64,000 nucleotides of DNA from Hexactinellida sp. DTS-2022. Lineage: Eukaryota > Porifera > Hexactinellida. Below are positions 166 to 36,900 of this stretch, in pieces. The DNA lies in NCBI GenBank assembly GCA_028753945.1, contig JAPNXP010000014.1, positions 3,534,001 to 3,598,000 of the forward strand. The letters run 5' to 3'. The notes below the pieces were generated by a model that was not told the origin of the DNA, did not search any database, and was given only the letters and a program-made list of their open reading frames with translations. Position numbers and translations under genes: made by a program. The first letter of the stretch is position 1; every line of letters starts with the position of its first letter.

Positions 166-2945
166 TTAATGGAATTTTTTTAACTTTCGCTTCTCAGTAT
201 TCTTGAAAATCACCATAGAATTGTAATTTTTAACCTTATTCGCTAAGAAACAATTCCCAGCTACGAATACAAGCTTCTGAAGGACATGGGAACCATTCAC
301 ACTACAAGATGAACTCCTCTCTCCATAATTTACAACCATCAGCATCTTATAATACATTCATAGATAAGTCAACAAGAATTTTTCTACAATGACCTCTCAC
401 AAATATCTCCATTAGTTCGCTATCATTTTCTATCAAATAAAGATCTTCCAAACAGTGACAATAGATTATAGGACTACATCCGATGGATATTTCAAACCTC
501 CTCGATCAGAGAGTTCTAATAGTTTGAACTTAGATATAGTATCAGATTCATCGATGAGTAAATATCTTTCAATAGTCAAAGAATCCCGGCATATACGACA
601 TGGTTGACTACGTTTCAAGTATTGATGTACTGAATAGCCAGCAATAAAGGCTAATGACTGAAGTACCTGAAATCCACAGTCAATGGCTGAGAGGTCTGAT
701 ATAGCGCTCAAGAAAGGATCAAGGTCAACTTCACTGGTAGAATCTTCGCTATCCGATGGTGAAAATGATTGAATGAACTCTTGCAAAGAAGTACTAGAAT
801 CATTCTGATTGGAAAATAGACGTAGTATATTGGATACTTTAAGACGACGTTCTGATTCTAAGATCTGAAGATAGGAAACATGATAATTAGCTCCTGACAT
901 CATACGATATAGTCCAAAATGATGTTCTAATGGATCAGTCTGCAAGAAAGATGTCAAGAGGTATGAAAACCAACAGTCCTGAGTTAGAAAATTTGCTATC
1001 TGTGGCAACTCGAGGCATGCTTGTTTGAAGCTGGTAAACGTCTGCTTGCTTAATTTGCCACCTTTCCCAGATAGTGACTCCCAAGCTTCTAGCCAATAGA
1101 CAATCCTAGTCAGTAAGAGAAAACGCTCATCGTTAAATCTTATTGGATTAGACAATGGGTCGTTCAACCTGATATGTTTATATGGCATATTGATATTGAA
1201 AATTTTCCAGAGAGATAGGAGAATCTCAACGAAATCAGAGGTGTTGCATTTGAATGCAGGAGAACGCTGCTCATCCTGGATAGCTAGAGCAGCAATTGTA
1301 GATTCGTGTACTACTTTTATAACCAACTTAACATTTTGACGTTCTAAATTGGATGGATAACAAGCCTTAGAAGTCAAACGAGGGGCAAGTTTAGCAAGGC
1401 TATCTCTCAGAATTATATAGTATACGGATATCACGGAAAGAAGCATGACATATATTCAATGGATAAGCGCATCGGTCAATAGAAAACAGTTCAAATCAGG
1501 ATAAGAAAAGAGCTTATTATCAGTTTGTTGATTCAACCAATTATTGCGAATAGTTTTCAGAATATGTACGAAGTCAAATGTAAGGAAAAGACCTCTGCTT
1601 ATATCACAAGGGTGTGGTACTCGAGTCTCCAGCTTTCTATTAGGGGAAAACAATTTGAAAAGTTTCACATTAAGGGGGTAGTTGTCAGTGGAGATGATTT
1701 CAACGAACAAGCCACAATCTTCAACATCATGAATACAAGATTTGATAGTGTCGAATAACTTTTCAGCTGTTACAGAAACACATGGGAGTAGACGAACAAT
1801 ACAAGACCATTTCTTATACAGACTCGACACCATGATAGCGAAAACTGTCTTGGTAGGATTATCTGGATCGAGGTTTGAAGCAAACAATCCCCCTCCTTTT
1901 CAAGTCCAAAGGATGAATACAATTTTTGTAAGGTATTGGAATGAGGAAGAGAAAAGCAAGACATGCTCTGTAGATAGTGATAAAAGCAGGAGAAATGAGA
2001 TGTGTTTTAAGAGCTAAGATCTGCTTCAATACGTTATACCTCCGCCTATTTTTTGGAACAAGACTATTTCGAAGCTGACAAAGAACAAACTGGAGCCTTG
2101 AAACTTCAGGACAAGGAACCAAGTCATCATCAGATTTACCGTCGTACATGTTATCAATAACTTGTTGGATATGACTTTCCGCAGATGCGATATGAGATGT
2201 GTTATCAAAATTAGTGGAAATATTCTCAGAGATTTTGGGTGCAGATGGCGGAATAGAAATTTCAATTAGAAGCGAATCAATTTGTCGAACATCACATAGC
2301 GTTACGATAGAAATTGGAAGATTTACACCATTATGAAAAACTTTGACGGACAAGTTAAAATTTACCGATAAGTACGTATTAACTTCAATCTTACAACTAT
2401 CTATACGAGGACGCAGAAAAATTAATGTATATTCGTCGGGATACCACGTAGACCATATACTAGCAATTGAGAGTAAGGGTAACTTAGCTTGTAAATCATG
2501 GAAACTGTGGATCTTGAACTTTTCATTCACTTCGACATCTGACTCTAGACTTAGTTTAACTGCTTGATAGAGAAGTTCGTCATCCTTGTCCTCTAGAGAT
2601 AGACGTGTGCGTTTGGTGGCAGAATGAGATGAATAGTACCGTGGACATCCCGGTAAAATAGTTGGCACAGCTCCATCTTTCAGCTTAAGACGGTTTCTTG
2701 GTAATTCTCGATAACTTCCGTCTCCATTGGGAACTTTGTGTGTTGTTTCGACTTCATCTTCTCTAAAATGTTTTGAGCACACGTACACGACTTTCAGTTC
2801 ATCTATATCATCTCTGTGTAGCGCTCGTAAGTCGTAACCAAGCATGTCTCAGTTCATCCGGCGTCTGTGACATCTTGAACACAGGTATTCTGTCGGTTGG
2901 GTCATAATTGCTTTTACAACCTGGTGCAGAACAGTTGTTGGGCAT
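166..2945 (-). pseudogene. P-element/THAP9-like transposase, decayed
   Basis: A THAP-domain DNA transposase of the P superfamily, broken by frameshifts and stops. The ATG at 2945 opens a C2CH THAP finger (CSAPGCKSNYD at the start). After a frameshift near 2850 it continues with VCSKHF and the closing AVPTILP motif. A second frameshift near 1890 leads to the RNase-H-like core, which shows TDNYPLNVKLFKLF and then DFVHILKTIRNNWL. An in-frame stop at 1456 is followed by the C-terminal part with FLQTDPLEHHFGLYRMMSG, a very characteristic P/THAP9 signature. A last segment lies at 166-357. The linker between the helical domain and the core is too short for the family, so an internal deletion is likely. 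I see no intact start-to-stop frame and infer an inactive copy. I did not identify terminal inverted repeats. Confidence 0.88.
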
Positions 2946-5290
2946 GATAATAGCTAGGTTAACGGAAACAGATTGGAAAGTATCAGAAAGGTGGATTAAT
3001 AAAGAGAAATAGTGAGAAATAACGAGATATTAGTGGAAATACAAATTTTTAGATAAATGTTTATATATGTACATTAGTGAATAGATACATTATGGGTTAT
3101 TAATAATTTCATCTTCAAAATCAACCCTGGTTGCAAATTGACCAATTTTATGGTTGGTTTGGCATATTATAGACTATTTAGTATCAGAAATAGCCAATAA
3201 ATGATATTCCCTTCGAAATCAATTCATATCGGCTAACACATCCCTGGTCCGAAATCCACATTTTGATGTTAGGCCTTATGTATAGTAGGCTATGTCTAAC
3301 ACTATTTGTATCACTCCTTACAGTGCTTTATGTATATCAGAGTAACGGCTATGGAGTAAAAGTTCGCTAAATTCATCAGCAGATTTTGGCATACCAGGAT
3401 TTGAAGTTTTCTTCAATTTGAAATGATGCATCTTGTATTGCGGTACGAAATTTGTGGTCCTTCTGGGTCATTACGGCATGTGTCATCAAAAATATCACGT
3501 GACCTACTACTGATGTTTCCACCGCTCTCTAGCTTATTTCGGAGAGCAATATGTTTGGTTTTATTTGCATCGACTTCAAGGTTGTGGTCTTGTCTTTGAA
3601 TGAATTAATTTAAAGAAAGGAATATCTTTCCAGAACCTTGACACTTCAAGTTTATATATAGGGGGGGGGGGGGGCAGATATTGGTATTTAATACTGAATC
3701 TTACATGTGAAAAATGAAATCTTCAAATTCACAGTTGAAATGTTCGAGTTTATTCAATTCAATTTTGGAATAAGCCATCAGAATTGATTAAAACGATTTG
3801 CCAAATATGATCATTTGACTTCTGCAGATAGATCTCTTTCATAATATTATGTAATTCGTAATAAACCCATCAATGAATCTATGATCACATATATGTGCGC
3901 AACCAACATGAACAATTCTAAGGAATAACCTAATTATTAAGTGGCAATAGTATATTTGTTGATAAACAGGGCGACTGGCCGTACAAACGATGCGAGATTC
4001 CCGATCGGGGGCCCCTTGTGGGACCGCAGACCCCCACTGCGATTACTTTCTGAATGGAATCCCGCATGGGCCCCCCAAGCCCAGCACGCCCCTGTTGATT
4101 TATCACAGATCCTAGTACATAAGATAGTTACAATTAATTGCTGGATTGATCAATGATATCTATAATATTAAAACACAAACCTGGGTGGGTGGATGTGTGT
4201 ATATGTGTATATAATTTTTTGTATGTTCCGAGTTGATTGAAGAAACTGGGCGGTTTCCAAATGTTACTTTTGGTCCCCGCCAACAAGTTGAGGTTTCCAC
4301 TAAAAAAAGATTCTCACACCTCAAAATTTCTCACATCCCGACAAGTTCTGCCGTGTTCTGCCGCGAAGCGACCTAGCAAGCAAAACGCGCTAGTGTTCCA
4401 TAATCACACGTTGGTATAATCATTGGTCAAAATCCCACATTGATATGTTACAGTCAGTCAATGTGTAAAGTTAGACAATATATAAAATTACTGAAATTTT
4501 TTGTCAATTTGTAAAATGACCAATCCACTTAGTCAATTTGTAAATGACTGAAATTGATAGACATTTTATAAAATGTCTGAAACTATAAACTTAAATTTGA
4601 CAGAATGCCTGAGATTAACTCAATAGTCAAACATCAAACTGCACTACTAAGTTTAATTTTCTCATTATAATGTGTAAATACAAATAAGGTAAACAAAATT
4701 ATTAGACTGAGGATTATAAGTTACTATAATATTAAGATAGTAAATATGTCACTTTTTTTGCAGATTAGGCTTAAATACACCTACTATTGCAAATCAGTCG
4801 GGCTTAGAACCACTTACATCTGTTAGTCATGCATCCTTTTCCAGTTATTGCACAGTTACATTTTGTAAAACCTTGACCACCACAATTCGATTCTTTGTGC
4901 ATAGCCTCACGAAATCTAAACCTCCATATCTTGACGTATATCCTCATATTTGTAAAGTTTTTGATGACAAAGATCAAATTAATTTCTCACGAAACGTCCT
5001 TTATGTACCCCGAGCGAACTGCTATGCGATATAAATCTCTCTCATCTCGATCCAAAATAAAACCCATTATGTGCGTGGGTCAGCTTTACCAAGATCTACC
5101 AAAGGTATCGGGATACTACGTTATCACCTGGATCACCAGCAACCTGTTCAAGTAGACTGCGTTGAACCATAATTTGACTTTGTACTACCAAACCATCTCG
5201 AGCTCGCTTGCGTTGAATACCAATATTTTGATGCATTTCTTCAAGATTATCTGTTATTATATCCTGAGAATTTGTTTGTAGTGGGACGCG
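2946..5290. other. Non-coding, AT-rich, repeat debris
   Basis: No convincing coding sequence. It holds a run of 14 G (3661-3674) and a GC-rich patch at about 3950-4100 with GGGGGCCCC and GGGCCCCCC blocks resembling the ends of hAT-type MITEs elsewhere in the window. The rest is unremarkable AT-rich DNA with a short GT-rich stretch near 4185-4225. Confidence 0.5.
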
Positions 5291-5523
5291 TTAGCTTAAC
5301 AATTGTGCATTTAGTGATAAAATCATCAAATTTGTTGTGCAACTAGAAAAATGTATATATAATGATTTAAGATCGGGAGGCACCTAGAATTCGACCTATA
5401 TGGTTCCAATTATGTCATTTTAATGCCCATATGTGGTAAATTGGTAATATGAATAATTACTCAGCCACTTAACCTTATATTGCTTCAAAATGTATTATTA
5501 GGTATAGCCCCAATTGAATTTGA

Positions 5524-5623
5524 GCGTGCCCCACCTGAGGTGGGGCCCGGGGCACAGGCTTAAATTAATGCCAGTGTGCCCCACCTGTGCCCCACCAGTG
5601 GTACCGCGCAAGCGCCGCCACTG
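5524..5623. mobile_element. Truncated CAGTGGCGG-type hAT MITE
   Basis: It ends in GCGCCGCCACTG, the terminus shared with the intact elements at 15132, 54571 and 57456. Its interior has the same GTGCCCCACCT blocks as the copy at 15132-15267. The left terminus is missing. Confidence 0.55.
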
Positions 5624-5639
5624 GTGTGAGCCAAACTGG

Positions 5640-6193
5640 ACTACTCTCCCCGAAGCATCGAAAGCGTGTTATTAACTGTTGTGGATGCAAAAAAGGTTTT
5701 CTTGGCCAATGCAAATGCAAACTAGCAAATCTGCAATGCACTGCTCTTTGTGCATGTGAAGTAGAGCCGAGAGATAAGACACGAACACGACACGACACGA
5801 ATTCGTGTTCGTGTCGTGTTAGGCCAAGATTTTCGCTTTCGTGTTCGTGTTTAAAGTTCTGTCTCGTGTCGTGTTCGTGTCGTGTTCGGTTAAAGTTTCA
5901 TGGGGGATTTATTATTAATATTATACAATACTTGTGGTGAACAAGTTATTGTATAATATTGGTATGTTATGATCTTAATTAATTATATTTATTCATTTAA
6001 TTTATCCAATTTGTATTTCGTGTTGATGTTCGTGTTTCGTGTTGACGTACGTGTTTCGTGTTCGTGTCGTGACATATTGGTGTGGCGCAATTCGTGTTCG
6101 TGTCGTGTTAGTGTCACATGTTTCGTGTTCGTGTTAGTCTTAAAGATAAATTGAACACGACGCTCACCTCTAATGTGAAGGAGAGTGTGCGCA
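5640..6193 (+). pseudogene. Cys-rich (CXC/tesmin-like) coding scrap split by a MITE
   Basis: The frame read from 5640 gives a string with Cys spacing CCGCKK..GQCKCK..LQCTALCACE, resembling the CXC (tesmin/TSO1-like) Cys-rich domain that also occurs in transposon proteins. At 5762 it is interrupted by a 411-bp hAT MITE. After the second copy of the 8-bp duplication the frame resumes as CEGECAQN and then stops. I infer one Cys-rich domain interrupted by the insertion. The gene it belonged to is not identifiable. Confidence 0.4.
5762..6172. mobile_element. hAT MITE with CGTGTTCGTGTCGTGT interior
   Basis: Termini are TAGAGCCGAG and CTCACCTCTA. It is flanked by a perfect 8-bp duplication, ATGTGAAG (5754-5761 and 6173-6180), typical of hAT. 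The interior is built of variants of CGTGTTCGTGTCGTG on both strands. No coding capacity. Confidence 0.85.
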
Positions 6194-7232
6194 GAACTAG
6201 CTATATGGCCTATTAATTGATAAAATGATGATTATTTAGATTATTTTTCATTCTATTTTGAACAACTTTGTGGTCTAATTTAGGATTTCTAATTTTTAAT
6301 ATAATATTTGACATTTAGTTTTTTCCACTAACATTTTCCACTAAGTTATTAGTGGAAAAATGTTGTGATAAATATTAAATACACAAATAATGTTTAAGGC
6401 CTAGTAACAGTGGAGCCGTGCTTGAATACATTCTGGGGGGGGCACAGAGTGTCGTAGTTAGTGACCAGATCAATGTTTTTCGGGACAAGCCTCTAAAAAG
6501 GGGGGGGGTACAGGAGATTTTTGGGGGCCCCGGGCTCATAGAGCACGATGCCACTGCCTAATAATGGCCTTTTGAATACAGATAATATGTTCAGGTACCA
6601 CTCTAAGTTTAAATGTCCATCAGAACATGTAATTTGATTGTGTCAAGTTTTAAACTTGTATCACAAAATATTTGTTAGCGGTAAACAGATTTACAAAGGC
6701 GTAGCACGCGGTCCGGCTAGACCGGCCATGGCCGGACCAGTTTTCATTTATTCTACTATATTATATAGGAGGGTCATGTTTTTGCCGGACCACTTTAACT
6801 GTTTGGCCGGAGAGTTTTCAGAGCCGTGCGACGCCCGTGATTTATGTTATGAAACCAAATTGGCTAAAAGATTTTCTGTACTAGATAGAGTTTAGCTTCC
6901 AACTGAAAATGTTCAAAATAGCCGATCCCTAAATAATACATTTGGAAAAGATATTTCGTAAAATTTCCGAATTATTAGTTACATGACCATATATGGACAT
7001 AATTGGAACTAATTGGCTAACACATTTCTGTATTTGATAGAGTTTAGCTTCAAACAGTAAATGTTTTGTATAGCCGACTTCCTATACCTAAATAATACAT
7101 TTGGAAGCAATATAAGGTTAAGTAGCCGAGTATTATTCATATTACCCAATTTACCACAAATGGGCATTAAAATGACATAATTGGAACCATATAGGTCGAA
7201 TTCTAGGTGCCTCCCGATCTTAAAACATTATA

Positions 7233-7492
7233 CCGTATTTCCCCGAATAAGCACCGGGGGCTTGAATAAGCGCCGGGTCAATAAAAATGACATTGAAATG
7301 TTTAAATTTATACACATTATTTGATCACTGTAATGTAATTCTATTGATTTTGGCAACTTCGGTAGATATACTGTTAGTGGAAACCATTAGAACCGAAGTT
7401 AATATTGTATTCTAGATTTTTCACAAAGTTTTCAGGACAATTTTGGCCCACGAAAACAATAAGCGCCGGGGCGCTTATTCGGGGATATACGG
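7233..7492. mobile_element. TA-flanked MITE, CCGTATTTCCCC family (copy 1)
   Basis: Inverted termini CCGTATTTCCCCGAATAAGC and GCTTATTCGGGGATATACGG are flanked by TA dinucleotides (7231-7232, 7493-7494), as for Tc1/mariner-type MITEs. It sits in the right arm of the 5291-7570 element. The left arm near 5350-5360 is the uninterrupted site. Confidence 0.85.
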
Positions 7493-7908
7493 TATATACA
7501 TTTTTCTAGTTGCACAACAAATTTGATGCTTTTATCACTAAATGCACAATTGTTATTAAAATCTTAGCTAATCTGCCTCACTATTGTGTGTGTGTTTGTT
7601 TGTTTGTTTCTCCAGAATTATTTGGAAAGACTACAAGTCCTAGAAAGCTGAAAATTTGTATACAGGGGTAATTTTGTACTGCGACAACGATCTATTTGTC
7701 TTTGAAGAGAAAATATTAACATTTAAATGTGACAAAATATGTTAGCCAATTAAATTCTAGGGTTTATTAGTATGGATCAGCCATTCAATTAGTATAAATA
7801 TTTTCTGAGGCTGCAATCTGATTCATTGAAAATAAGTTCATCTAACCAATCATTTGTGCCTGTATTACAATGCATGTTTTTCTTTTAGTATGCCTGACTA
7901 TAAATACT

Positions 7909-8057
7909 CAGTGGCGGAACCAGGGGGGCCAGGGGGGCCATGGCCCCACCTTTTTGTGGCTGGCCCCCCCTAGAATAACAATGTTGTACAATGTGCCCCC
8001 CTAAATCCTCCCTGGCCCCCCAAAGCTCCCCTACCTGAAATCCTGGCGCCGCCTCTG
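7909..8057. mobile_element. hAT MITE, CAGTGGCGG family
   Basis: Starts CAGTGGCGGAACCAGG and ends CCTGGCGCCGCCTCTG. Flanks TAAATACT and TAATACTT are a near-identical 8-bp duplication with one indel. GC-rich, non-coding, 149 bp. Confidence 0.75.
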
Positions 8058-8115
8058 TAATACTTAGTTTTTTTAGAACCTACATTTTTTTCTTCTTTAG
8101 ATTGACTTTCTTATT

Positions 8116-10010
8116 ATGCCTCCCAAACGGAAGCCAGAGATTCAGGGGGGAACAGATTTACATGCTGATCGGAATCGTTGGGAGCGAGCCAACGAGACTC
8201 CTTAGCAGACCCGACTCCGTCTTGATACGCAAAGACAGCTTCAGTCTACTATTCGAGATGGAGAGTCGGAGAGTGACCGTACTGCGCGCCTCGATAATCA
8301 TAGGCATACCAGTCGGTGTATTTAGAGTCTCAGACTGACGAGCAAACTGCTGCGCCCCTCGATAAGAAGAGGGAACACCAGTCGGTCTATTTATAGTCTC
8401 AAACTTACGAGGAAACTGCTGCGCGCCTTGACAATCAGAGGTAATATGCTACCATGCCTAGAGCAGGAGAGACAGCAGAGCAGCATGCTCAGCGTATGCA
8501 GGAAAGGGTTGAGTTGTATGGTATTTCCCTCATTTCCAAGTCTGCCTTGAATTTATCTATGTCACAATCTGGAATCTGCCTGTGAGGTTACTGATAACTT
8601 TAGCGCCGAGTATTCAGTTGGAAGTATGACTTTTTCATGCACTTTTTAAATTCTTGGAAAGTGAAAGACTTTCAACTAGCACCAGATTATTTCCCAAATT
8701 TCCACTCTGTGTGGGCAGGCCAAGGTTGTTATTCTCTCTTTAGCTACGCCACCTGACCTGCTTGCTCACTTGCTGACAGCGGGTGACACCAGAGGGAGAG
8801 CTTTCAGAGATAACATCTGAGCGTATAACTCTGCTCTTGCTTTCGCCTCGCTCGGAGTTAACCTGGATAAGCAGCTCGCCAATGCTAAGAGAGGAGCGTA
8901 CACATTCCGTATTCCCGGGACTGTGCACCACTACATTGGACAGTTCATGTCGAGAGAGGGACAGGCCCCGGCATTTGCTCAGATATATATCCATGACGGT
9001 ACCCCTGAGGCTGAAGCGCAGATTCGCAAGCAGGCTCTAGAAGAGGCGTCTCTACCAGTGCTCGACAAATTAGGTGGTTTGGTTAAACCGGCCGTTTTTT
9101 ATTATTTAGCCACCAGAAAAAGTGAGGTGGTGGCTTAATTAGCCACCATCAAAATTTCATTTTGTCGAGCACTGGTCTCTACCCGAGCTCCTGTGTCTAC
9201 AGGCTATGCTGCATGAAGTTAATCCGCATGTCTCCTTCTTCAGACAGGGAATAGACGTTATGCGAGAGCATAGAGGTGCAGACGTGAGGATGATTATTAT
9301 ATCTGAAGGCGACTCTGATCCCCGTAGGTACAACGCCCCCATTGCACCTGAGATCAGCTAATAAGAAATTCCCTGCAGCTCTAGAACTCATCTACACGAA
9401 TTTCGCTGACAAGTTTGTGTGGGACAAAGAGAAGCTTGAATGGAAACCGAGAGTTAAGGGGCATGGTAAAATGATAGCCCGTATGTACTCCGCTCATCCA
9501 GGGGAAGGACCACGTTTATACCTTAGGACACTTCTCAACCATGTCACAGGCTGCACGAGTTTTAAGGACGTCTGTACTCTCCCTGATGGCACCGTCTGTG
9601 ACACCTATAAGGAGGAACGTCTGAGGCGAGCTCTGTTGGAGGATGATCCGGAAGTTGATGAGTGTTTGTCTGAGGCAGCTACCTATTCTATGCCAGCACA
9701 GTTGCGTCAGCTATTCGTGACTATTTTCCTGTTTGTTGAGCGATCTATTCCACTCGCTTTCTCGGTTAAGTACAAACCCTCTTTGGCTGAGGACTTCCTA
9801 TGTCGGGCTAGAACTGTATTTGCTAATGTAGAACTCGACGAGCATATCTTAAATATCGTAATGCTTGATCTTGAGTACCTAATGCAGAAACATGGAAAGT
9901 CCTTAGCTGATTATCCAGGAATGCCGATCCCTACTAATGTGAGAAATCCGTATGAGGAATCGAGTATCATTATGGATGAGCTTGATTATAATGTCAGTGA
10001 ACAGAATTAA
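8116..10010 (+). pseudogene. Helitron Rep-side protein, decayed
   Basis: N-terminal half of a classical Helitron RepHel. It starts with MPPKRKPE (ATG 8116, just after a pyrimidine-rich AG that could be a splice acceptor). Arg-rich text with in-frame stops follows, then the Helitron_like_N signature with HHYIGQFMSREGQAPAFAQI (about 8920-8985). A 119-bp MITE interrupts at 9056. From 9342 the frame is open for 222 codons and matches the post-Rep linker (GEGPRLYLRTLLNHVTGCTSF, read in two parts; QLRQLFVTIF). The stretch that should carry the HUH and two-Tyr nuclease motifs, between roughly 9300 and 9345, is missing. The protein could not catalyse transposition. Copy decayed and non-autonomous. 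Confidence 0.85.
9056..9174. mobile_element. hAT MITE inside the Helitron gene
   Basis: Termini CAGTGCTCGACAAA and TTTGTCGAGCACTG, 119 bp, flanked by a perfect 8-bp duplication GTCTCTAC (9048-9055, 9175-9182). It carries GCCACC/GGTGGC inverted blocks and interrupts the Helitron Rep reading frame. Confidence 0.92.
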
Positions 10011-10059
10011 CTAGCCTCTACTTAATGCTGACTAGTTTAGTATATATAACATTATAATT

Positions 10060-11429
10060 GCAGCTGTTAACGATACTAATTCGTACTCTAATGGATTCTT
10101 TATCGATGGACCTGGAGGGACCGGAAAAACGTTCCTTTATAACACGCTGTTATCCACGGTCCGTTCACATGGTCATATAGCATTAGCCATGGCTTCATCC
10201 GGTATAGCAGCACTGCTCTTACAGGGTGGAAGGACAGTTCACTCTAGAATGAAGGTCCCTATCCATTTGAATGAAATTTCTGTATGCAGTATTTCCAAAC
10301 AGAGCGCATTAGCCAGGTTAATTCAGCGCACGAGACTTTGTTTGGGACGAGGCTCCTATGATACATACGTATACATGCTGCAGAGTGTATCTACCGTACA
10401 TTGAGAAATCTCTGTTCATGCGATATTCCATTCGGTGGCAAAGTTATTGTGTTTGGAGGTGATTTCCGTCAAATACTGCTTGTAATCAGACTTGGGACCG
10501 AAGCTGATGTGTTAGCCTGTCTGAACAGATCGCCTTTCTTGAGTTATGTTAAGGTTCTCAAACTCACTATAAACATGCGACTCCGTAATTTATCTTCAGG
10601 TGATGCATCCCAAGTTAGTGACTTCTCCAAATTCCTTTTAAGAGTTGGAAAGGCACTGAGCCCGAGGATGGGAATCATATGATTCACGTAGACCACAAAT
10701 ACGTAGTACATGTAGCAGGCGAGTCAGTTTCTGACTTGATTGCTGCTACTTACGGCGATTTAAAGTAAACTATAATAATCAAGATTATACTTCTCGCAGT
10801 AGTTTGATGTGTCCTAAGAATGATACCACTGATTTTATCAATCAATACGTTATGAACCTGATACCAGGGGAAGCGAGCACGTTATTAAGCGCAGACTCGG
10901 TAGGTAAGGAGCAGGCGGCTATGTACCCCACTGAGTTCCTAATTTTACTACACCAAATGGTTTGCCTCCTCACCGACTCTGTCTTAAGGCTCACGCTTCT
11001 ATTATTGAGTAGTATTGACCCGACTCAAGGAATGTGTAACGGCACTCGGTTAACATGTAAAAGCATTCCTGAATCGCATGATTGACGCTGAAATTGCTAC
11101 AGGTATTCATAAGGGTGAACGAATTATCCATGACTCCATCTGACTCAGATTTTCCGTTTGTACTCAGAAGGAGGCAGTTCCCTATTCGTCCTGCCTTTTG
11201 TATTACCATTACCAAAGGGCAAGGACAGAGTTTAGAAAATGTGGGCATATTCCTACCATCTCCGAATGCTATTTTCCGCCATTGTCAGCTTTATGTCGCA
11301 TTGAGCCGAGTTCAAAACCCTGCCAGAATAAAAATTATGGTTTGTGGCGGCACCCCCTCTTCATCAGGCAGAGCCTGGGTTAAGAATGTTGTATACCGTG
11401 AGGTATTCTACAGAGATTTTCTGACATAG
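10060..11429 (+). pseudogene. Helitron PIF1-type helicase, decayed
   Basis: Helicase half of the same Helitron. Walker A is DGPGGTGKT (10105-10131), followed by MASSGIAALLLQGGRTVHSR, VIVFGGDFRQIL, NMRL, and the C-terminal TITKGQGQSLENVGIFL and LYVALSRV motifs of the PIF1/RecD2 family. The frame shifts at least at about 10400, 10680, 10800 and 11085, so no continuous protein is made. Order and spacing match a normal Helitron helicase. It ends in VFYRDFLT at 11429. The next bases are already the RT-like ORF, with no obvious Helitron 3' hairpin between. Confidence 0.9.
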
Positions 11430-12557
11430 AAGCCTTCTACCCCAACACCCCACATAGCCTAGTGATCGACACCATTATATTATTCAACCCCCACCTTCCA
11501 AACCAACTAAGGATATTTAAACACCTTCTCAACTTCAACTTTGCCACCGACGGAACGCTCATTTACCATCTGGGAAACACGGGCATCCCAATGGGTCTAC
11601 CCCTCGCACCCAAACTGGCACGAATGTGCACAGCACACCTAAACCACTACTGCATACACCATTGCAAACCCTCACGATTCACTTCGATGACGTGGCCGCC
11701 ACCTACCCAATTGAAGACCTCCCACTCCAACCCTACAAACTAATTCCAACCGAATCGAATACAACACAGGACATCAAATACCTACCGGCAACTAAAGAAT
11801 TAATACCAATATCAGGCATGGGGCCAAGCCAGCCCTTTGGACTTAAGCCCAATTTTGAGAGGGCTTAAATCCGGACTTAAGTCTTCCTTCAATAAAAAGG
11901 CTTAAGTCCGGACTTGGACTTAAGCCCTTTATAGATGAGCTTCAAGCCTTTTCAAGCCCTTTTTCAAGGGACTCATTCAATAAAATACGGTATGGATTTC
12001 TAAATAATTAGAGTAAAAGGCCTTATATCTCGGGCTTAAGCCCTTTATTAAGGACTTGAGTTTGGACTTAAGCCCTTTTCAAAAAGAGCTTAGAAAAGGG
12101 CTTGGGCTTAAGCCCTTTTGAAGAGGCTTGACCCCATGTCTGACCAATATAACAGAAATATCAACAACCTGTACTACTTCACCCACATTCACACCACCCT
12201 TCAAAAAAATGTGCGCAAACACCTACGTAAGCTCAGCCTTCCCCTGACACGAATCGGCACAAACCCAGCAAATACATTACATTACCTCGTAAGAAAATAC
12301 GTACCAGCATTAACAAGACTCAGGCACAAACCAACCGAAGTGATCCAAAAATTAACCAGCATCGCATACTTTCCAAAACACTCCGCGAAACAAACCTGGG
12401 AATTCAAAACCATCATAAAATACTCTTTCTCAGATACTCGACCAACCAAACCCCAACTGCAACCCCCTAGCAAAAAAGCACTACCACCTAATCTCCAACG
12501 TACCTTTAGCCCCACTGAAGGGAATACTAAGCTATCAAAAGAAGAGCGACCATAGCA
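11430..12557 (+). pseudogene. Reverse-transcriptase-like ORF (GxPxG ... FDDV)
   Basis: An ORF in a C/A-rich, G-poor strand. It begins with YPNTPHSLVID (compare the 'YTNIPH' start of Penelope-type RT palms) and contains GIPMGLPLAPKLARM (about 11580-11625), the RT motif 4-like GxPxG...AP. After a +1 shift near 11665 it reads IHFDDVAATYP, a YxDD-type catalytic motif with Phe at the first position. A 322-bp MITE (11817-12138) interrupts. The frame then resumes as SDQYNRNINNLYYFTHIH and runs to 12557. Known: GxPxG and xDD are core RT motifs. Inference: degraded RT of a Penelope-like or unclassified retroelement. The N-terminus appears truncated at the junction with the Helitron. Confidence 0.5.
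11817..12138. mobile_element. MITE built of GGCTTAAGCC blocks
   Basis: Inverted termini CATGGGGCCAAGCC and GGCTTGACCCCATG enclose about ten variants of GGACTTAAGCCC and its complement. It splits the RT-like ORF. I found no clear target duplication, so the superfamily is open. Confidence 0.7.
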
Positions 12558-13008
12558 CACACCACTGGCATATTTGTAGCATCAAACAATTCACAAAATG
12601 CAACAGTTGTATCCCAATTATTAAGCGAAAACCACCACACCCATCATTACATGCTTTCGATGGCGTTGCATTTACATCTTGCATCATAAGGACGAACAAA
12701 ACACAGACGCAAAACACCTCTACATAACCTCAGCGAATACCAGTAACACAACACTTAAACTCGCCAACATATAAGACACAATACACTGCATCCTGAACGG
12801 AAGAAATCTAGGATGGCAAATACTATACACATCCCAGCCACACACAAACGACCGTACAAAACTGAAGATAAACAGATAGAGAAATGGCAAAGTTCGCCCA
12901 TAAAGAACTTCCAAAAGCAAACATCCACGAGAGAAAACACATACTAAACTTCTACAACAAAAGTAACGCTGCTACAAACAAAACACACCCCTAAAACACC
13001 AAAATATA
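12558..13008 (+). pseudogene. GIY-YIG-like nuclease segment after the RT
   Basis: The frame starting at 12661 reads WRCIYILHHKD, then KHLYITSAN and SNTTLKLANI before a stop, and after it GWQILYTSQPHTNDRTKLK. The order CIY...LYI(T/G)...N...T..KLA resembles GIY-YIG nucleases (GIY, YIG, Arg, Asn/Glu), which follow the RT in Penelope-like elements. Just upstream, HWHICSIKQFTKCNSC offers a CxxxxxxxCxxC pattern. The key Gly and Arg are replaced and stops interrupt, so this is a suggestion rather than a firm domain call. Confidence 0.35.
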
Positions 13009-13115
13009 CCCAAACGACCGAAAATAACTAACATACACAGAAGCAACCGAAAAGAACCAACATACACACAAAACGACCGAAAAATAACCAACATACACAC
13101 AAAAACGATCGAAAA
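13009..13115. repeat. ~30-bp tandem repeat, ACGACCGAAAA...CATACACA
   Basis: About 3.5 imperfect units built around AACGACCGAAAAATAACC and AACATACACAC follow each other. They lie in the G-poor region downstream of the RT-like ORF. Confidence 0.7.
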
Positions 13116-13804
13116 AGAACCCCGCTGAAGTGCGAGTTATACAATCAGAGAAAAAACCAACTGCCACTCAAGGGCGCGCCTGCAATACCTTATTGCTCTA
13201 AAAGCCGGCGTAGCAAAGGAACTATTATGGTTCGATTAAACACACAAATTCTGCAACCAACAACACTACCAACAAGGACGACTACTACACCTAACAACAC
13301 ACACACAAGCAACTCAATACCACCTAAAACAATACCACTTAAACGACACCATCAAACCAATACCAACAACTAAATTCAAATCACAACCCATTCCACCACT
13401 CTAGATACAGCTAGTACAGCAACTAACGAGCAACAGCATTTGCAACAAATTGCAATACTGCTACTACACGCTACTATACACTGATCTACTCGCATCAAAA
13501 GACTACAGTCAAGTAGCAGTGTATAGTTAATGCTACAAAAGTCAGTACTACACAAATGCTACAGCAAAGATAAAGCAACAAATCAATGCTGAGCAAAAGT
13601 ACAGAAGCAACTGAGTACAACTAAACCATATAGAACCTGCATTCGTCCGAATGCACATTGGACGAAGCAGGAACAACAAAGTTAGTGATTCTCAAAGACC
13701 AAAACCCAACAAGTATTTATACTAAAACCCAACTCCGGTAACAGACCTAACTCAAAGCACCAACAGTACATTGAAACTAACCACCTCTAATAAACTGAAG
13801 AGTC
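13116..13804. other. G-poor non-coding spacer with a hairpin
   Basis: No ORF. The + strand is rich in A and C with many CTACA/CAACA motifs. A hairpin lies at 13474-13526, where CTATACACTG pairs with CAGTGTATAG around a 20-30 base loop. I see no other gene signal until the TATA box at 13805. Confidence 0.5.
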
Positions 13805-13812
13805 TATAAATA
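13805..13812 (+). promoter_or_regulatory. TATA box of the OTU ORF
   Basis: TATAAATA lies about 110 bp upstream of the ATG at 13921, with a pyrimidine-rich leader between. Position and leader fit a TATA-driven transcript of the OTU ORF. Confidence 0.5.
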
Positions 13813-13920
13813 GACGAAACACGAAAGTCATTACATAATTTTACTATTGAACTATTTTCCTTCTTCAACATTATTAAACCTTTACTCAGCACAGTGCACT
13901 CCACTCAGGATAAATGTACC

Positions 13921-14809
13921 ATGGATGTATCTCTTTCATCCTCTCCTCCTACACAATCTGATCTGAAGACCCGGTCTTTATTCCTGTGAAAAGGGTTTCT
14001 GTACCAGATGATTCTGAGTCACTCAGTAAGAAGCCTAAGCTAACTGAATTCAGTGATAATATCCTCAGTCCATTCCTGGATTCTCAATCTACTCAGTCTC
14101 CCATGAATACTGTTTTGCCTGATTTGATGTTTGATGGTATTATCACAGGCCCAGTAAATACTATGGATATTGATTTGCTCAATTGTTCCATTAATAACTT
14201 GACTCCTCTTAGCAAGGAGGATTGCTAGTGGTATTGTGTTAGATATTGAACCAATTTTAAAGAGTAGAGAAACATTACATCGCCCTCTTATTAATAATTT
14301 GATGCAATACTACTGTTCATTGGAAAATAGTTTGGCAAATACATTTCACATGAATATTTCTTTAGTACCAGTATTTGCAGATGGTAATTGTTTGTATCGA
14401 GCATTATCCCATATTATATTTGGTACTGAATCGAAATTTGAAATGCTAAAGCAGAATCTGATTGGTAGATTCATCTCGAGCCCTGAACACTTCCCTAATG
14501 TTATGGAGAAATCGGGTTTGTTCTCTGAGTAGGAATTGCATGAGCACGTACAACGCATTTCCGCTCCTTATGAATGGGACACTGACGTACAATTAAGTAT
14601 TCTAGGAGCTTTAACTGGCATAGACGTCGTCTCCATTATTGCAACCTATAGTGATTGCAATAACTGGAGACTAGACCATGTGTATATCCATGGTCAACTA
14701 ACAAGTCCAATAGCAACCTACCATGGTCAAAATTTGGGGTAATGTATCATCGCATCACCACCATGTAGTTTCCGAAGACTTTGATCCGTTTTACTTAGTA
14801 GCTCAATGA
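13921..14809 (+). pseudogene. OTU-type cysteine protease ORF
   Basis: OTU domains are papain-like deubiquitinating or protease folds. The ATG at 13921 is followed by a Ser/Thr/Pro-rich, acidic N-terminus with an NLS-like SKKPKL, with frameshifts at about 13985 and 14225. The OTU core carries FADGNCLYRALSHIIFG (about 14375-14430), giving the catalytic Asp and Cys. A stop at 14530 interrupts, then the frame reopens to 14740. After one more shift, HHHVVSEDFDPFY ends at TGA 14807, with a His cluster where the catalytic His should be. SHIIFG is shared with the OTU of the Helentron at 34 kb, so both belong to transposon-type OTUs. An AATAAA at 14908 could be its poly(A) signal. Either a free-standing ORF of the RT unit or a Helentron fragment. 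Confidence 0.7.
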
Positions 14810-16878: not shown

Positions 16879-17539
16879 AATTTAAAAGACACTCACAACT
16901 AAAATAATTAATTAATGACAACTCACCTGATATTCTTTCTGTTTCGTCCCGTTTGGACTCGTCAGTTGCGTTGCCTTTCCCAAAATACACTTTAGATTGA
17001 TGAGTGTTGATGTAGTGTTCTGTCGTGTTTTCGCCACTGGGGATATCAGGCTTGCCGTGGATATGGATATCCATGGATATATCCATGGAGAGCTCCATGG
17101 ATGGATATCGAGTTTGTCATATACATGGATATTGTGGATATCCATTTCAAAATTGAACTTCGAAAAATCTTTCAAAGCAGGGTTCTAAAAATGAGCGTTA
17201 AAATTAAGTAGCCTTAGTTAATCTTGCACCCTAATTTCTTTCATCTAATAAAATTATTTACTAGACTTAACTTCATTCGTCACTCCTGAATAATTTACTT
17301 CCCCTGATTTTTTTTGGCTTTTTCGTTTATCTTTCATGCTATACTATTTAGCTCATTAATTAATTAAACCATAGAAGAGAAAATAGAATTCGAAGAAATT
17401 AGTCGCGATGGTATAAATGGAAGACTCCGAGATAAATCCTCCATTTACAAAGATGTACTGTGATCTCAAAACAATGATCATGTAAATGTCAAAGCAATCT
17501 ACCTCAACGACAAAAAAAAACCGTTCCTCTCGTGTGGAT

Positions 17540-31339: not shown

Positions 31340-32578
31340 AAGTAATTTTTGATAGAGTGAAAATGTATACTTACTATTTGGTTATACTGGTTTATTTGAT
31401 TCATTGAAGTCTTTGGAAAAAAATTAATTAAAAGAAAACACGGAAATCTTCTACTTCAACTTGTGAATAAATAACTATATTGAAATCAATATCCAAAGCA
31501 CAAACCGTATGACTTCTTTAGAAAATACAATTAAAATAAAACACAGAAATCTTATACGTACTTAAATTTGTGAAGACATAACAATATTCCTATCATTGTA
31601 AGTAATGTAATTCAACATACCCAAATTTCCGGTACTGAGGCGGGAGTACGTTCGCCAGCCAAGATACTAATTTACTTTGGACGGTGGTAGAGTTTTGGCG
31701 CTCATAAGGGTTTTGGCGCTCATTATCTCTGAGATTTTTGATATGTATTTAACTAATTAGTACGTTTATGAATAATTTAACAGCAAATTTCAATGTACTG
31801 TAAAATTTATTAAGTTTAATTATTTGCAATATTTAAACTATAAATTTTAAGTGAATTCACTACAATATTTGAATTCAGCACACTCGATAACCCCAATAAA
31901 CTTACTTGTTAACTATCCATGAGTTTACAAATGATGAAATTTCGAAATAGTCCTAGAGAATTATTTATAGCTACATTCATAGGTGAATAAATACATGCTC
32001 TAATTAAAATTATAAGATGAGGAGTATATAAATGGTTAATTTATGTATTGCATGAGATAAACTGGGAATCTGTCATATTCGTTTGTATCCCTGTCTACAA
32101 TCAAACCCCTTGTGTAAAAATAGATCCTAAGTTTCTGATGAATGTTTATATCTTTTTGTCATGAAAAAAAAAATTTAATAATATATTAATAATGAATTTA
32201 CTGTTAAATGTTTTAATAAATTAATACTACAAAAAAATCAAATTCAGTATGGATTTCATCATTCTGAGAATAGAATAATCGTTTCCTATTGAAGGCTGGA
32301 TGTAATCTTGAATCACTCTGGCAATATCTTTCTAACTAGTTTAATAATGTTTCAAAGTTAGATGATATAGACAATTTAGAATCCTAATTAGTTAGAAATT
32401 TTTCTATAGACACTTTTGTGTCGTGTACAAGACACCTTTATGACTTTTCAATAATAACAAAGAACTCGATTGCTCTTCAATTTTAGAATAGAAATATATA
32501 AACCTAAGAAATAATGTACTATTCAAACATCTTACTTTTGACTTGTGTAAGTTGTCAATAAGAGAACAAAATAGAAGG
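31340..32578. other. AT-rich intergenic region
   Basis: Between two divergently oriented short genes, so it probably holds both promoters. A GC-richer patch GGCGGGAGTACGTTCGCC lies at about 31640. A direct repeat GGTTTTGGCGCTCAT occurs at about 31710-31725. Nothing else recognised. Confidence 0.45.
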
Positions 32579-32586
32579 TATAAAAG
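32579..32586 (+). promoter_or_regulatory. TATA box TATAAAAG
   Basis: 78 bp upstream of the ATG at 32664, leaving room for a normal start site near 32610 and a ~50-nt leader. Strong match to the metazoan TATA consensus. Confidence 0.65.
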
Positions 32587-32663
32587 CCTTAATTCTAGTT
32601 ACATATTACGCAATAAAAATCCACGAACATTTTTTATAATTTATCATCATTTTCTATTCATTA

Positions 32664-33250
32664 ATGGCTCAGAATCTGAACAATTGTAAGATCAACAACT
32701 TGACTGTAAGTACAATTATATTATCAATAATTGTATCATCATAATAATTATTATAAATTAATAACGATTTTATCCATAGATTACTAACAATCCCAGAAAT
32801 GGATTTAAGAAATCGAGGAAGAGATATATAAAAACAAATCAATCTATAAGCTATTTAAAGAAAAAAATCTAGTCAACGAAGCAAAGAAATATTTCGTGAG
32901 TTTTGTTTCCTTATTCCTAGTATACTGTACTAGTGTGTTATCTTTGTATTTAGGAAATATGCAATTGTGACAACAAGAATAATTTGGCGGCCAAACTGAT
33001 CGAAATAAATAGACAGGACATATTACACAAACTTGGCTTACATACGCCCCCCGTTTCTCCCTCACTTACCACGCCCTCCGTTTCTCCCTCACATGCCACG
33101 CCCTACGTTTCTCCCTCACATGCCACGCCCCCCGTTTCTCCCTCACATGCCACGCCCCCCGTTTCTCCCTCACATGCCACGCCCCCAGTTTCTTCCTCAC
33201 CTCCTGTCTCTATGATTAATTTACTACAAACACAACAATTACATAAATAA
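32664..33250 (+). CDS. Short spliced gene with Pro/Ser repeats, unrecognised
   Basis: Best model: exon 1 from ATG 32664 to 32705 (donor GTAAGT), an exon ending at 32895 (ATTTC, donor GTGAGT), a 58-bp intron 32896-32953 (acceptor TTTAG) and a last exon 32954-33250. The middle exon reads NKSIYKLFKEKNLVNEAKKY, then ICNCDNKNNLAAKLIEINRQ. It ends in five or six 8-residue HATPPVSPS repeats encoded by a 24-bp tandem repeat (about 33045-33205). Exon 1 and the middle exon are not in phase with the acceptors I can see, so exon 1 may be wrong or the gene is frameshifted. No domain recognised. A TATA box precedes it. Confidence 0.45.
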
Positions 33251-33654
33251 CATTCTTATTAGCATAATTATTTTCTATTACTACAAACGTATACTATATA
33301 ATTAAAACTCTATTTATATCATGTTATCAATTGTAATTAGAATAATTTCGGATTAAATGGAATATACGTATACCTTGTGAAATAAGTACATTTCCTGGTA
33401 TTTGCAAAACCACCATAATTCATTATCAACCTGTATCAACAAATAATTTAACATCAATTAAGATGTATTACTTGAATTCACCTTTCACAAATTCCCCCAT
33501 ATATAAGATAATTACAGAATACTGCTTTAAATCTATGGAGAATTTCAATTCGGTCCCTCTTGGGCTGCTGATAATAATCAGTGGGTGCACTTGGGACACA
33601 CCTCAGTACCTTTTCCCCGAAAATAACCCATAAATTACTAACTGCACCATGATC
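33251..33654. other. AT-rich spacer
   Basis: No gene or repeat recognised. Probably 3' flank of the short spliced gene and the start of the Helentron 3' region. Confidence 0.4.
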
Positions 33655-33790
33655 CCTGTTACATAAGCCATATGCAAAACGGCACACTTATCATACAGAC
33701 AAGCCATATGCCTGGCACACTTGCCAAAAAAGCAAGCCACATGCTATCTCGCACACCTCATAGAGGCCATATGCTTCGCACACTTAGTAA
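33655..33790. repeat. Minisatellite CCATATGC...GCACACTT
   Basis: Four diverged units of ~33-37 bp, each with CCAYATGC followed by GCACACYT. It lies 180 bp beyond the stop codon of the Helentron main ORF, so it may be part of the Helentron 3' region. Confidence 0.7.
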
Positions 33791-33966
33791 CAGTTACATG
33801 TATTAATTAGCAAAGTATTATTAAACCTGATTGTACTCATAATGACAAACAATTATAGTATGAACTCCACGAAAATTTGGAATCTCATAAAGCTATGAAA
33901 TAGCATAATCCATTATTTGTCGAGAAATTCTACATAATAAAATAAACGCCAATAGCTAAAATACTA

Positions 33967-36900
33967 TTAAATCATGTAGATTGCATCATAGTGGTTCGTA
34001 CCACTTCCACAATGATTAATGGAATGAAATAGAACTATTAATGACTTTCCTTGATAGATAGGATCATTGGGTATACCTAGATTATTTGCATTATATACAT
34101 CAGTAATCACCCATTTAGACGGGTCTGTATCAGGAGCATTAATATAACTTACATTAATGCGGGCTAAAATGCCTAACATAATAAGTTCATTCACAATTCC
34201 CCAAGAGTAATTACGCTTCATATTACTCAAGTGTTGCTGAATAGTAACTGCATTATAGCCTTGGTGGCCACAGAAAGCAGCAACATAAGGACTTTGTTCA
34301 AATGTGTCTATTAGAGAACCACGGATATTATGATGCTCACTTTCATCACCGAAAATAATGTGAGACAATGTTCTAAAGAAACAATTCCCATCACTTATTA
34401 CAGGAACTATCCTGAAATTAAACCGATCTCTTATATTTGTACGCATAAAATCGTAATAACTAGTAGCAGAGACTCTAGACCCAGTATAGTTAGTCGGTCT
34501 TAAAGGTATTCTCTGTAGATTAATGCATGCTGCTAATGACTGTCTCATCGCAAATGTGAATGAATTAGCATTGTCATATGTATTTACGGGAGACAGCACA
34601 GGAGTAGGGATGTGTACATGACTAACAATTACATCCTGAATATCCTTGGTTGTATTATCATTTGATATTTGGTCAATATCAATAATATCATGTTGACTAG
34701 TAGCATGTGATATAATTGGTTGATTATCCACATTACTACAGTCACTAACAACACTTCCAAGAGAAATCAACATTGGCTTATGATCACTAAAGTATGATTC
34801 ATAAAAACCAGATGAACAGATCAAGTTTTTAGTGAATACACAATCCAGCTGAGATCCATAGTTAGTGGATACTCCAGACAAAGATTGCATTATCCCTTTA
34901 TTTGAAAAATACTTTACCAGGGTATCTCTCTCAAGAGATCGCGCAAATAAATCTATATTGAAGTCCCCAGTAACTATCAAGGAATCAGAGTTATCAATTT
35001 TACATAGAACCTGATCAAGTTCAGAGTAAAATTCCTTCATTAGGGATTGTGGTGATCGGTATATAGACATTACCACGACAGGTTTATCGATAATCATGGG
35101 ATCATAGAACTGGAGAATCAATATCTCGATCCTAGCGCCATTATGACAGCCTGAGTGTGCAACTAAAAACTTACACATCGCTGGATTTCGGGAGTATATG
35201 TGTGTACCAGAACCAGGAAGTCTAGCACTACCATCAATTCTACCAATGAGAGTATGACAAGGGATATTAAAGTTATCAGTGGCTAAAGTCATTGTCTCCT
35301 GCAAGATTAACACTTGGGATTGTACTATGAATTGATTTACGGTCAAATCTTCCCAGTGTTTGTTCAATGAACGAACATTGTGTACATAGATATCTGGACT
35401 AGTTAGTGGAATAGACCAGATAATAGCACAGTGTTCTCTTAACCGCTTAAGTTCTAAGTGGACAGGATCTTTTTCAGATAACTTATTAGTTAGTTTTAGA
35501 TTACCAACTACAAACAGACCAGATGCCGATTTAGCCCTACTGAGCGCGGTGTATAACGCATTACGTAGCAAACGTACTTCTATATGGACTACAACACAAT
35601 CGTAAGTATCGCCTTGACTCTTATGAATTGTAAGAGCTTCAGCTACTATGAAAGGAAACTGCTTCCTAACTATCTTATAGGAACTCACACCTTTCCCTCT
35701 CTGGAAACGTCGTGTTTCCAATCCAATAGGAGTCCAGTTCCTTGGAATTGCATTATCTCTAAGATAACGATGGTGAGACTTTGCTCGTTTATCCTTTCCT
35801 ACTGTTGGATCGTCAAACTCCATCCAGAGGATACAGGGAACTCGTTCCAGAGAATCGCTCTTGGTACCATAAACTATTTTCTTCAAGAGGCCAGTAGCTC
35901 CATTAACCAGACCATCTTGTATGTCGTTATTCACTGTCATGAGGTATCTAGCGCCCAGCTTCAAGAAGAGCTCATAGGGTAGTCCCTGGGTGTCACATAC
36001 CTTTAGGTGTTTAATAAGGTTACTCAGCTTGTCAGTTATACCTCCAGCATTGTCTCCTACTAAAGAATCAATAGCTATAAATCTAAAACCTTCAGTGGTT
36101 AATGCATTGAGAACAATCTCGTTATGAACATTAACACTGGCGTTTGTACTAAACAGATGGATAGATTTTATGGGAAGATTCTCATAAGAATCTTTCGCAA
36201 TAATTCTACTGGTAAAAAGATTTGTGTCATCCTCAGTTAAACAACAGTTAGCAAAATTGTTCAATGCTAATGCAAACTTCTGATCATCTTTTTGTCTCAT
36301 TATTTCCGTCAGTTCTATATATGAGAATTTTTCCCAAAGGTACGGACCAACCAGCCCGTCGTAATTATTGGCACTGGAGACTGAAATTTGAAATACATAG
36401 CTATCCATAACCGGACGTAACTGATGGAAATCTCCAACACAGATGATGGAGACACCACCAAAGTCCAGTGAATTGTCCATAATGGCTTTCAATCGCTTAT
36501 TAACCTGAGACAAAATTTTACTACCAACCATGGATATTTCATCTATTATGATATCTTTTAAATAGCTTAGCTTACTTCTTAATGTGTTACAAACATCAGA
36601 AGATAAATTGGGCATTTCGCCGTTAAACTCCGTTACAGGTAAAGCAAATGCAGAATGGAGTGTCATACCACGGATATTAAAAGCAGCTTTACCTGTAGGA
36701 GCTGTTAGCAGTACCTTAATAGCATCAGGCTTAGTGCCAGGTAGTGAATTCATAAATCTTACCAAACCTTCGTATAAGACTCGTACCACCGTACTCTTAC
36801 CAACACCAGCACCTCCTCCTATATAGAGATACATGGGCAGCTGCTTCATAGTCTTAAAGCAGTGCAGAGTGTGGAGGAATACAGTACGCTGAACCTTGTT

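Follow-up and report, generated by a model that had tools for sequence, protein, structure and literature searches.

A 5'-truncated Penelope-like retroelement nested in an OTU-bearing Helitron of a hexactinellid sponge

Introduction

Helitrons capture gene fragments, and Athena and Coprina are endonuclease-deficient members of the Penelope-like elements (PLEs). Passages of two reports (PMC4067079, PMC9741609) already describe Helitrons and Helentrons that bear an OTU domain; PLE tandems appear in a passage of PMC11167929, PLE insertion without a target-site duplication (TSD) and joined by microhomology in part of PMC3846280, and a review (PMC6155905) characterises PLE hammerheads as usually minimal, without helix III. 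Here we analyse a stretch of 64,000 nucleotides from Hexactinellida sp. DTS-2022 (GCA_028753945.1, JAPNXP010000014.1, our contig C6:3534001-3598000; the window), in which a first-pass annotation had read a reverse transcriptase (RT), a GIY-YIG-like segment and a TATA-driven OTU protease on a G-poor + strand (11,430 to 14,809) as one compact unit, either an undescribed lineage or a chance neighbourhood. We put at about 0.92 the probability that this neighbourhood consists of nested transposons, namely a 5'-truncated Penelope-like retroelement inside a Helitron, the retroelement itself being split by a hAT-type miniature inverted-repeat transposable element (MITE).

Results

The arrangement in the window is as follows (UTR, untranslated region; LTR, long terminal repeat; ORF, open reading frame; TIR, terminal inverted repeat).

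7584..11408, + strand: Helitron, left part, with 5' region, repeats, Rep remains and a PIF1-type helicase with frameshifts; 75-93% identical to, and colinear with, other Helitron copies
11409..13892, + strand: Penelope-like retroelement, 5'-truncated, lying within the Helitron; similarity to RT copies starts at 11422-11441, and 12 of 13 Helitron copies have empty sites
11423..11812, + strand: RT, first part (DIEAFYPNTPH, GIPMGLPLAP, HFDD), in two frames; 82% and 78% identity to L026 ORF2 in tblastn, RVT_1 E=0.017
11813..12142, no strand assigned: 330-bp hAT-type MITE nested in the RT, with TIRs CAGRCATGGGG and an 8-bp TSD, ACCAATAT, at 11805-11812 and 12143-12150
12143..12560, + strand: RT continuation (thumb region), frame 12112-12555, with tblastn matches to L026 ORF2
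12561..13002, + strand: frameshifted C-terminal part of ORF2, a Cys-rich domain (the "GIY-YIG-like" segment), delimited by alignment of relatives and without a GIY-YIG match
13003..13889, + strand: retroelement 3' UTR / pseudo-LTR, with the conserved 3' end TTATTAAACCTTTACTCAG at 13871-13889
13795..13819, + strand: hammerhead core, CTGAAGA, stem II GTCTATAAATAGAC and GAAA, with the "TATA box" (13805-13812) within its stem-loop
13893..14951, + strand: Helitron, right part, with the OTU domain (RepHel C-terminus) and 3' region, decayed; 13 fetched Helitron copies are 87-90% identical at their OTU ends

Copies of each part were sought throughout the host genome (112 Mb, 18 contigs). The RT, OTU and Helitron parts are all present in many copies, with OTU and RT copies at separate places. 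For the OTU stretch, 53 matches came up (40 of 97 candidates scored; best 90-91% identity), 36 of them beginning at window 13892-13896. Two stretches of the RT gave 12 and 10, which outside the window are 69-87% and 70-80% identical. Thirteen OTU loci (L032-L044) were fetched with wide flanks, as were seven RT loci (L025-L031), leaving out RT matches on C5, at C2:3.32 Mb and on C10. The Helitron helicase that precedes the RT block in the window lies upstream of the OTU domain in all 13 OTU loci, and 12 of these present an empty site: the helicase end (window 11408), 20-21 bp, and then sequence from window 13893-13895. The thirteenth, L039, has ∼1.2 kb of other sequence between helicase and OTU. 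No RT match longer than 60 bp occurs in the 13 OTU loci and no OTU match longer than 60 bp in the seven RT loci; RT and OTU are therefore not one unit, and none of these fetched loci joins them with the same ends. This disposes of an undescribed RT-OTU lineage and leaves the chance neighbourhood, the adjacency having arisen through insertion; the empty sites show that the retroelement landed between helicase and OTU.

Pfam identifies Helitron_like_N (E 9.5e-64), PIF1 (2.1e-76) and OTU (5.1e-7) within one 1453-aa frame of locus L037, which thus has the HUH Rep and PIF1 helicase of a Helitron. The window copy is decayed: it is frameshifted, its Rep is without ∼1.5 kb between 9355 and 9356, and its ends are only bracketed. 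With the three domains in one protein the element resembles the Helitrons and Helentrons with OTU; it differs from Helentrons, which carry an AP endonuclease, in that none occurs among the eight Pfam matches at E 0.01 in the L037 frame, which on that ground is not a Helentron. The original Helitron encoded a single RepHel protein with a C-terminal OTU cysteine-protease domain, as seen in that other copy, and the Penelope-type insertion separated this domain from the remainder of the protein. What had been annotated as an OTU protease ORF does contain an OTU remnant (14203-14532; Pfam E=0.0014, under the curated cut-off, the frame resuming past a TAG), as a decayed part of RepHel. OTU plays no part in the retroelement cycle; in the Helitron, to judge from the literature, it may serve as a deubiquitinase shielding the transposition protein. 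Just upstream of the Helitron, at window 5297-7555, are long inverted repeats whose arms, of 87 nt and 63 nt, are 98% complementary.

Window homology in the RT loci runs, in pieces, from 11422-11441 to 13889-13895 in five of the seven, ending at 13468 in L025 (near the end of the fetched stretch) and at 12873 in L029, and TTATTAAACCTTTACTCAG or a near variant is common to the five that reach 13889-13895. The supposed non-coding spacer of 1.1-1.3 kb ahead of OTU is thus the retroelement's 3' UTR. By eye, the PLE-like sequence may extend a few bases further 5', to the vicinity of a CAGA that the empty site also has. The block replaces 20-21 bp of the Helitron target, no target duplication being seen there, and by eye none is obvious in the flanks of L026, L027 and L028.

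The nested MITE was scored at 40 genome places, the window one included (of 220 candidates), and is absent from the RT of all seven other fetched loci. We take it to be of hAT type from its CAG...CTG ends, 8-bp TSD, 330-bp length and many copies; its TIRs, TSD and absence from other copies show that the retroelement received it. The insertion accounts for one break in the RT frames and for a local rise in G.

The first-pass recognition of RT-like coding was sound, with the coding lying in pieces. In tblastn, L026 ORF2 matched 11423-11850 and 12144-12831, the four main pieces being 64-85% identical; a further 13 aa match at 100%, and a weaker stretch, which overlaps these and reaches 12979, matches at 39%. 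Pfam RVT_1 matched the window piece at E=0.017 and an intact relative at 1e-4, and was found in five of seven aligned members (best E 2.5e-7). The catalytic box, HFDD in the window, is YFDD in all five ORF2 proteins checked and YFDN in a divergent copy, L048; the FDDV once singled out as unusual is therefore a decayed YFDD box.

The family unit of 4.7 kb comprises a pseudo-LTR (minimal hammerhead core plus TATA), a Cys-bearing ORF1 and an ORF2 with RT and a C-terminal Cys-rich domain. A genome search with protein gave 68 matches (60 of 225 candidates scored). At L026 a 4723-bp unit stands in tandem (697-4659 = 5420-9381, 99.87% over 3963 bp), at L027 and L028 3' end fragments lie immediately before full units, and arrays on contigs C9 and C7 have copy spacings of 4719 and 4698; tandem or partial-tandem copies with a pseudo-LTR, as in PLEs, thus occur at three loci and in two arrays. 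Measured from stop to stop, ORF1 and ORF2 of L026 are 461 and 749 aa long; in a sister subfamily, whose ORF2 is 52% identical, the lengths are 493 and 749 aa and the -1 overlap is the same. ORF2 is under purifying selection, with dN/dS (the ratio of nonsynonymous to synonymous rates) of 0.083 between L026 and L027 and 0.062 between L046 and L049 (dS 2.8, near saturation), and 0.11 in both pairs over its C-terminal 150 aa; that of ORF1 is 0.36 over 333 codons. At L027 an RT/RNase H-like frame (6462-6902, - strand), apparently of a Ty3-type element, adjoins the 5' end of the retroelement copy, and at L030 near-identical inverted gene copies (576-1652, - strand, and 1857-2885, + strand; 97.7% over 1045 bp) lie beside another.

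ORF2 might be made as an ORF1-ORF2 fusion through -1 frameshifting at the ORF1 stop. At that stop CCTTTTTGTTRARGGAGTC occurs in seven of nine loci, L025 being truncated ahead of the site and the pattern applied to L028 being blind to a TTG variant; four of the seven (L026, L027, L031, L046) have the heptamer C CCU UUU, and the ORF2s of L026 and L049 have no ATG before residues 62 and 69. Against frameshifting stand ACCUUUU in L030 and L049, GCCUUUU in L029, and an ATG at ORF2 residue 6 of L046, within the overlap. The part of PMC5408684 consulted has nothing on PLE frameshifting.

The TATA box previously assigned to OTU, TATAAATA at 13805-13812, lies inside the retroelement's 3' end and is conserved in such ends at loci without OTU; a role as OTU promoter was rejected. 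Window 13795-13820 reads CTGAAGAGTCTATAAATAGACGAAAC, with the core CTGANGAG..CGAAAC, a pattern with two occurrences against 0.04 expected by chance. This core is intact in seven of nine aligned 3' ends (L026 enters twice, and L027 and L028 each supply both ends of one element), the exceptions being an insertion in the L030 end and a changed first G of GAAA in L031. Stem II is GTCTA/TAGAC, GAGC/GCTC and GTGG/CCAC in three subfamilies; pairs 2, 3 and 4 have changed on both sides with CTGAAGA and GAAA fixed, which is covariation, and the chances of stems at least this long are 2e-4, 3.5e-3 and 3.5e-3. The conserved core and covarying stem II suggest a minimal hammerhead in the pseudo-LTR, as in PLEs. 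In each of the three subfamilies TATAAA falls within the stem-loop, and the "TATA" thus belongs to the hammerhead segment; among open-licence PubMed Central papers we found no PLE literature combining hammerhead and TATA. Two further hammerhead-like sequences were met: a second core in the window, CTGACGAGTCCAAACGGGACGAAAC (16911-16971, - strand; 20.9 bits and E 0.008 against Rfam Hammerhead_1, whose cut-off is 34, over 211 bases searched), and a type III hammerhead at L031 (3631-3680, + strand; 47.1 bits against a cut-off of 48.5) within an insertion that one retroelement copy carries.

The segment annotated as GIY-YIG-like is real as far as its strings go, in that CIYIL and LYITSAN are present at 12.65-12.77 kb and the region is conserved in relatives; the label itself found no backing. 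Five Cys (610, 615, 618, 636, 641) are invariant in seven members, with CVYIL / LFVTSAN-like strings. The GIY-YIG superfamily has a known list of catalytic residues and a YIG strand with glycine; at the place of that strand the seven aligned members read FVT, FIT, FIT, YIH, YLH, YLG and YIV, glycine occurring in one. Pfam GIY-YIG matched neither the window piece nor the seven members up to E=10, within HMMER filters, and over the whole host genome it matched once, elsewhere. Neither hmmsearch and hhalign against UvrC, YhbQ and a host GIY-YIG protein nor PDB sequence searches lent support. Searches of a viral contig collection confirmed no relative of ORF2 and found none of a host GIY-YIG domain, and a search of phages found none of the C-terminal domain. 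The ORF2 C-terminus may nevertheless adopt a divergent GIY-YIG fold.

The retroelement looks Penelope-like by its tandem units, pseudo-LTR, minimal hammerhead core and RT layout, so that the first-pass comparison with Penelope stands on these features. Several observations weigh against this assignment or the nested reading. The class would follow from layout rather than from an RT tree against PLE references; RVT_1 scores fall short of the 29.6 cut-off, at 22.5, 25.9 and 27.5 bits for the three members shown, and two of seven members went unmatched; GIY-YIG, part of canonical PLEs, went undetected by sequence; Rfam gave the window hammerhead 14.7 bits against a cut-off of 34 and, at E 5, listed no such 3' ends in six other loci; the window stretch gains nothing in stability over its shuffles (z -0.26; 81/200 as stable), and the folds contain neither helix I nor helix III; and the loss of 20-21 bp of target may date from the insertion, as a deletion, or from some earlier change in the window Helitron copy. 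The rival that fares best, though still improbable, draws on some of the same points: the RT would belong to a non-PLE lineage, LINE-like or unplaced, that merely resembles PLEs, as the weak RVT_1 matches, the separate ORF1 and the want of a recognisable GIY-YIG would allow. It has to contend with the tandem units with pseudo-LTR, the minimal hammerhead core within it, and the regions ahead of the RT core, which we take to be those named DKG and RPIV/RPVV.

Turning from class to arrangement, an RT gene captured by the Helitron and carried as cargo would suit the known habit of Helitrons of capturing gene fragments, but the RT block stops at the retroelement's own 3' end, like free-standing copies, breaks the RepHel frame and occurs in 0 of 13 other fetched Helitron copies; we rejected capture as very unlikely. 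The G-poverty noted at first pass is real: the + strand has 8-15.5% G in 200-base bins from 11.4 to 14.0 kb, excepting the MITE bins (19.5 and 17%). Such values might suggest G-to-A hypermutation of the window copy, but the L026 tandem unit with open frames is equally poor in G (A 0.368, C 0.301, G 0.138, T 0.193), and because C and A are both high there, G-poverty is a family trait and not damage; hypermutation was rejected as having scarcely any likelihood. Another strongly G-poor + strand stretch, window 32501-34000 (GC skew -0.33 to -0.37), has no tblastn match to the retroelement. Least credible of all is a composite retroelement with RT, endonuclease and OTU protease as a single mobile unit: RT and OTU are adjacent on one strand in the window, but OTU is missing from 7/7 fetched RT loci, the 13/13 fetched OTU loci have the Helitron helicase and no RT, and at L037 OTU is in frame with that helicase.

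Discussion

The retroelement nested in this Helitron shares with canonical Penelope/Poseidon PLEs an RT, tandem or partial-tandem units, a pseudo-LTR with hammerhead and TATA, 5' truncation and insertion without TSD; it differs in having two overlapping ORFs rather than one, a GIY-YIG undetectable by sequence and a long A/C-rich 3' UTR. It is like Athena and Coprina, by description and not by sequence, in lacking a recognisable endonuclease and in having one sister array near a contig end that lies inside a copy, and unlike them in the conserved C-terminal Cys-rich domain after the RT and in that the other listed host copies lie >100 kb from a contig end (contigs besides C3, C5 and C10). Contig C9 ends inside a sister-subfamily copy (L054, last 600 bases), with three tandem copies 16-27 kb away; on C7 the copies are 12.8-19.7 kb from an end that is satellite. 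Two contig ends, read over 300 bases each, have no telomeric repeats. Both the C9 and the C7 copies lie on the minus strand, but the two ends are opposite ones, which gives the copies different orientations towards them; a telomere link was considered and is not claimed.

The retroelement may represent a little-described Penelope-like lineage. A bolder proposal, which we regard as doubtful, is a distinct PLE lineage that has lost a recognisable GIY-YIG, fuses ORF1 and ORF2 in Gag-Pol style by -1 frameshifting at a conserved CCTTTTTGTT on the ORF1 stop, uses one 14-19-nt segment both as promoter TATA and as hammerhead stem-loop II, and maybe survives partly by arrays at chromosome ends. From what was observed (nesting, truncation, tandem units, hammerhead core conservation and ORF2 constraint) a cycle can be sketched. 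Multimeric, tandem RNA would be transcribed from the pseudo-LTR promoter and ORF2 produced as the frameshifted fusion; the RT would prime on a DNA end or nick, in target-primed synthesis, and incomplete synthesis would yield 5'-truncated copies joined by microhomology without target duplication. Target-primed synthesis, microhomology joining and related steps are described or proposed for PLEs in the same passages of PMC11167929 and PMC3846280.

On a practical level, the analysis clears away the tempting false lead of an RT-OTU unit and supplies a clean example of three transposons one within another, empty sites included. The retroelement family merits a specialist look: its ORFs overlap, its open frames are under purifying selection and its hammerhead core covaries. 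It may be of use in testing how insertion proceeds in PLEs that lack a recognisable endonuclease, and whether pseudo-LTRs combine TATA with a ribozyme.

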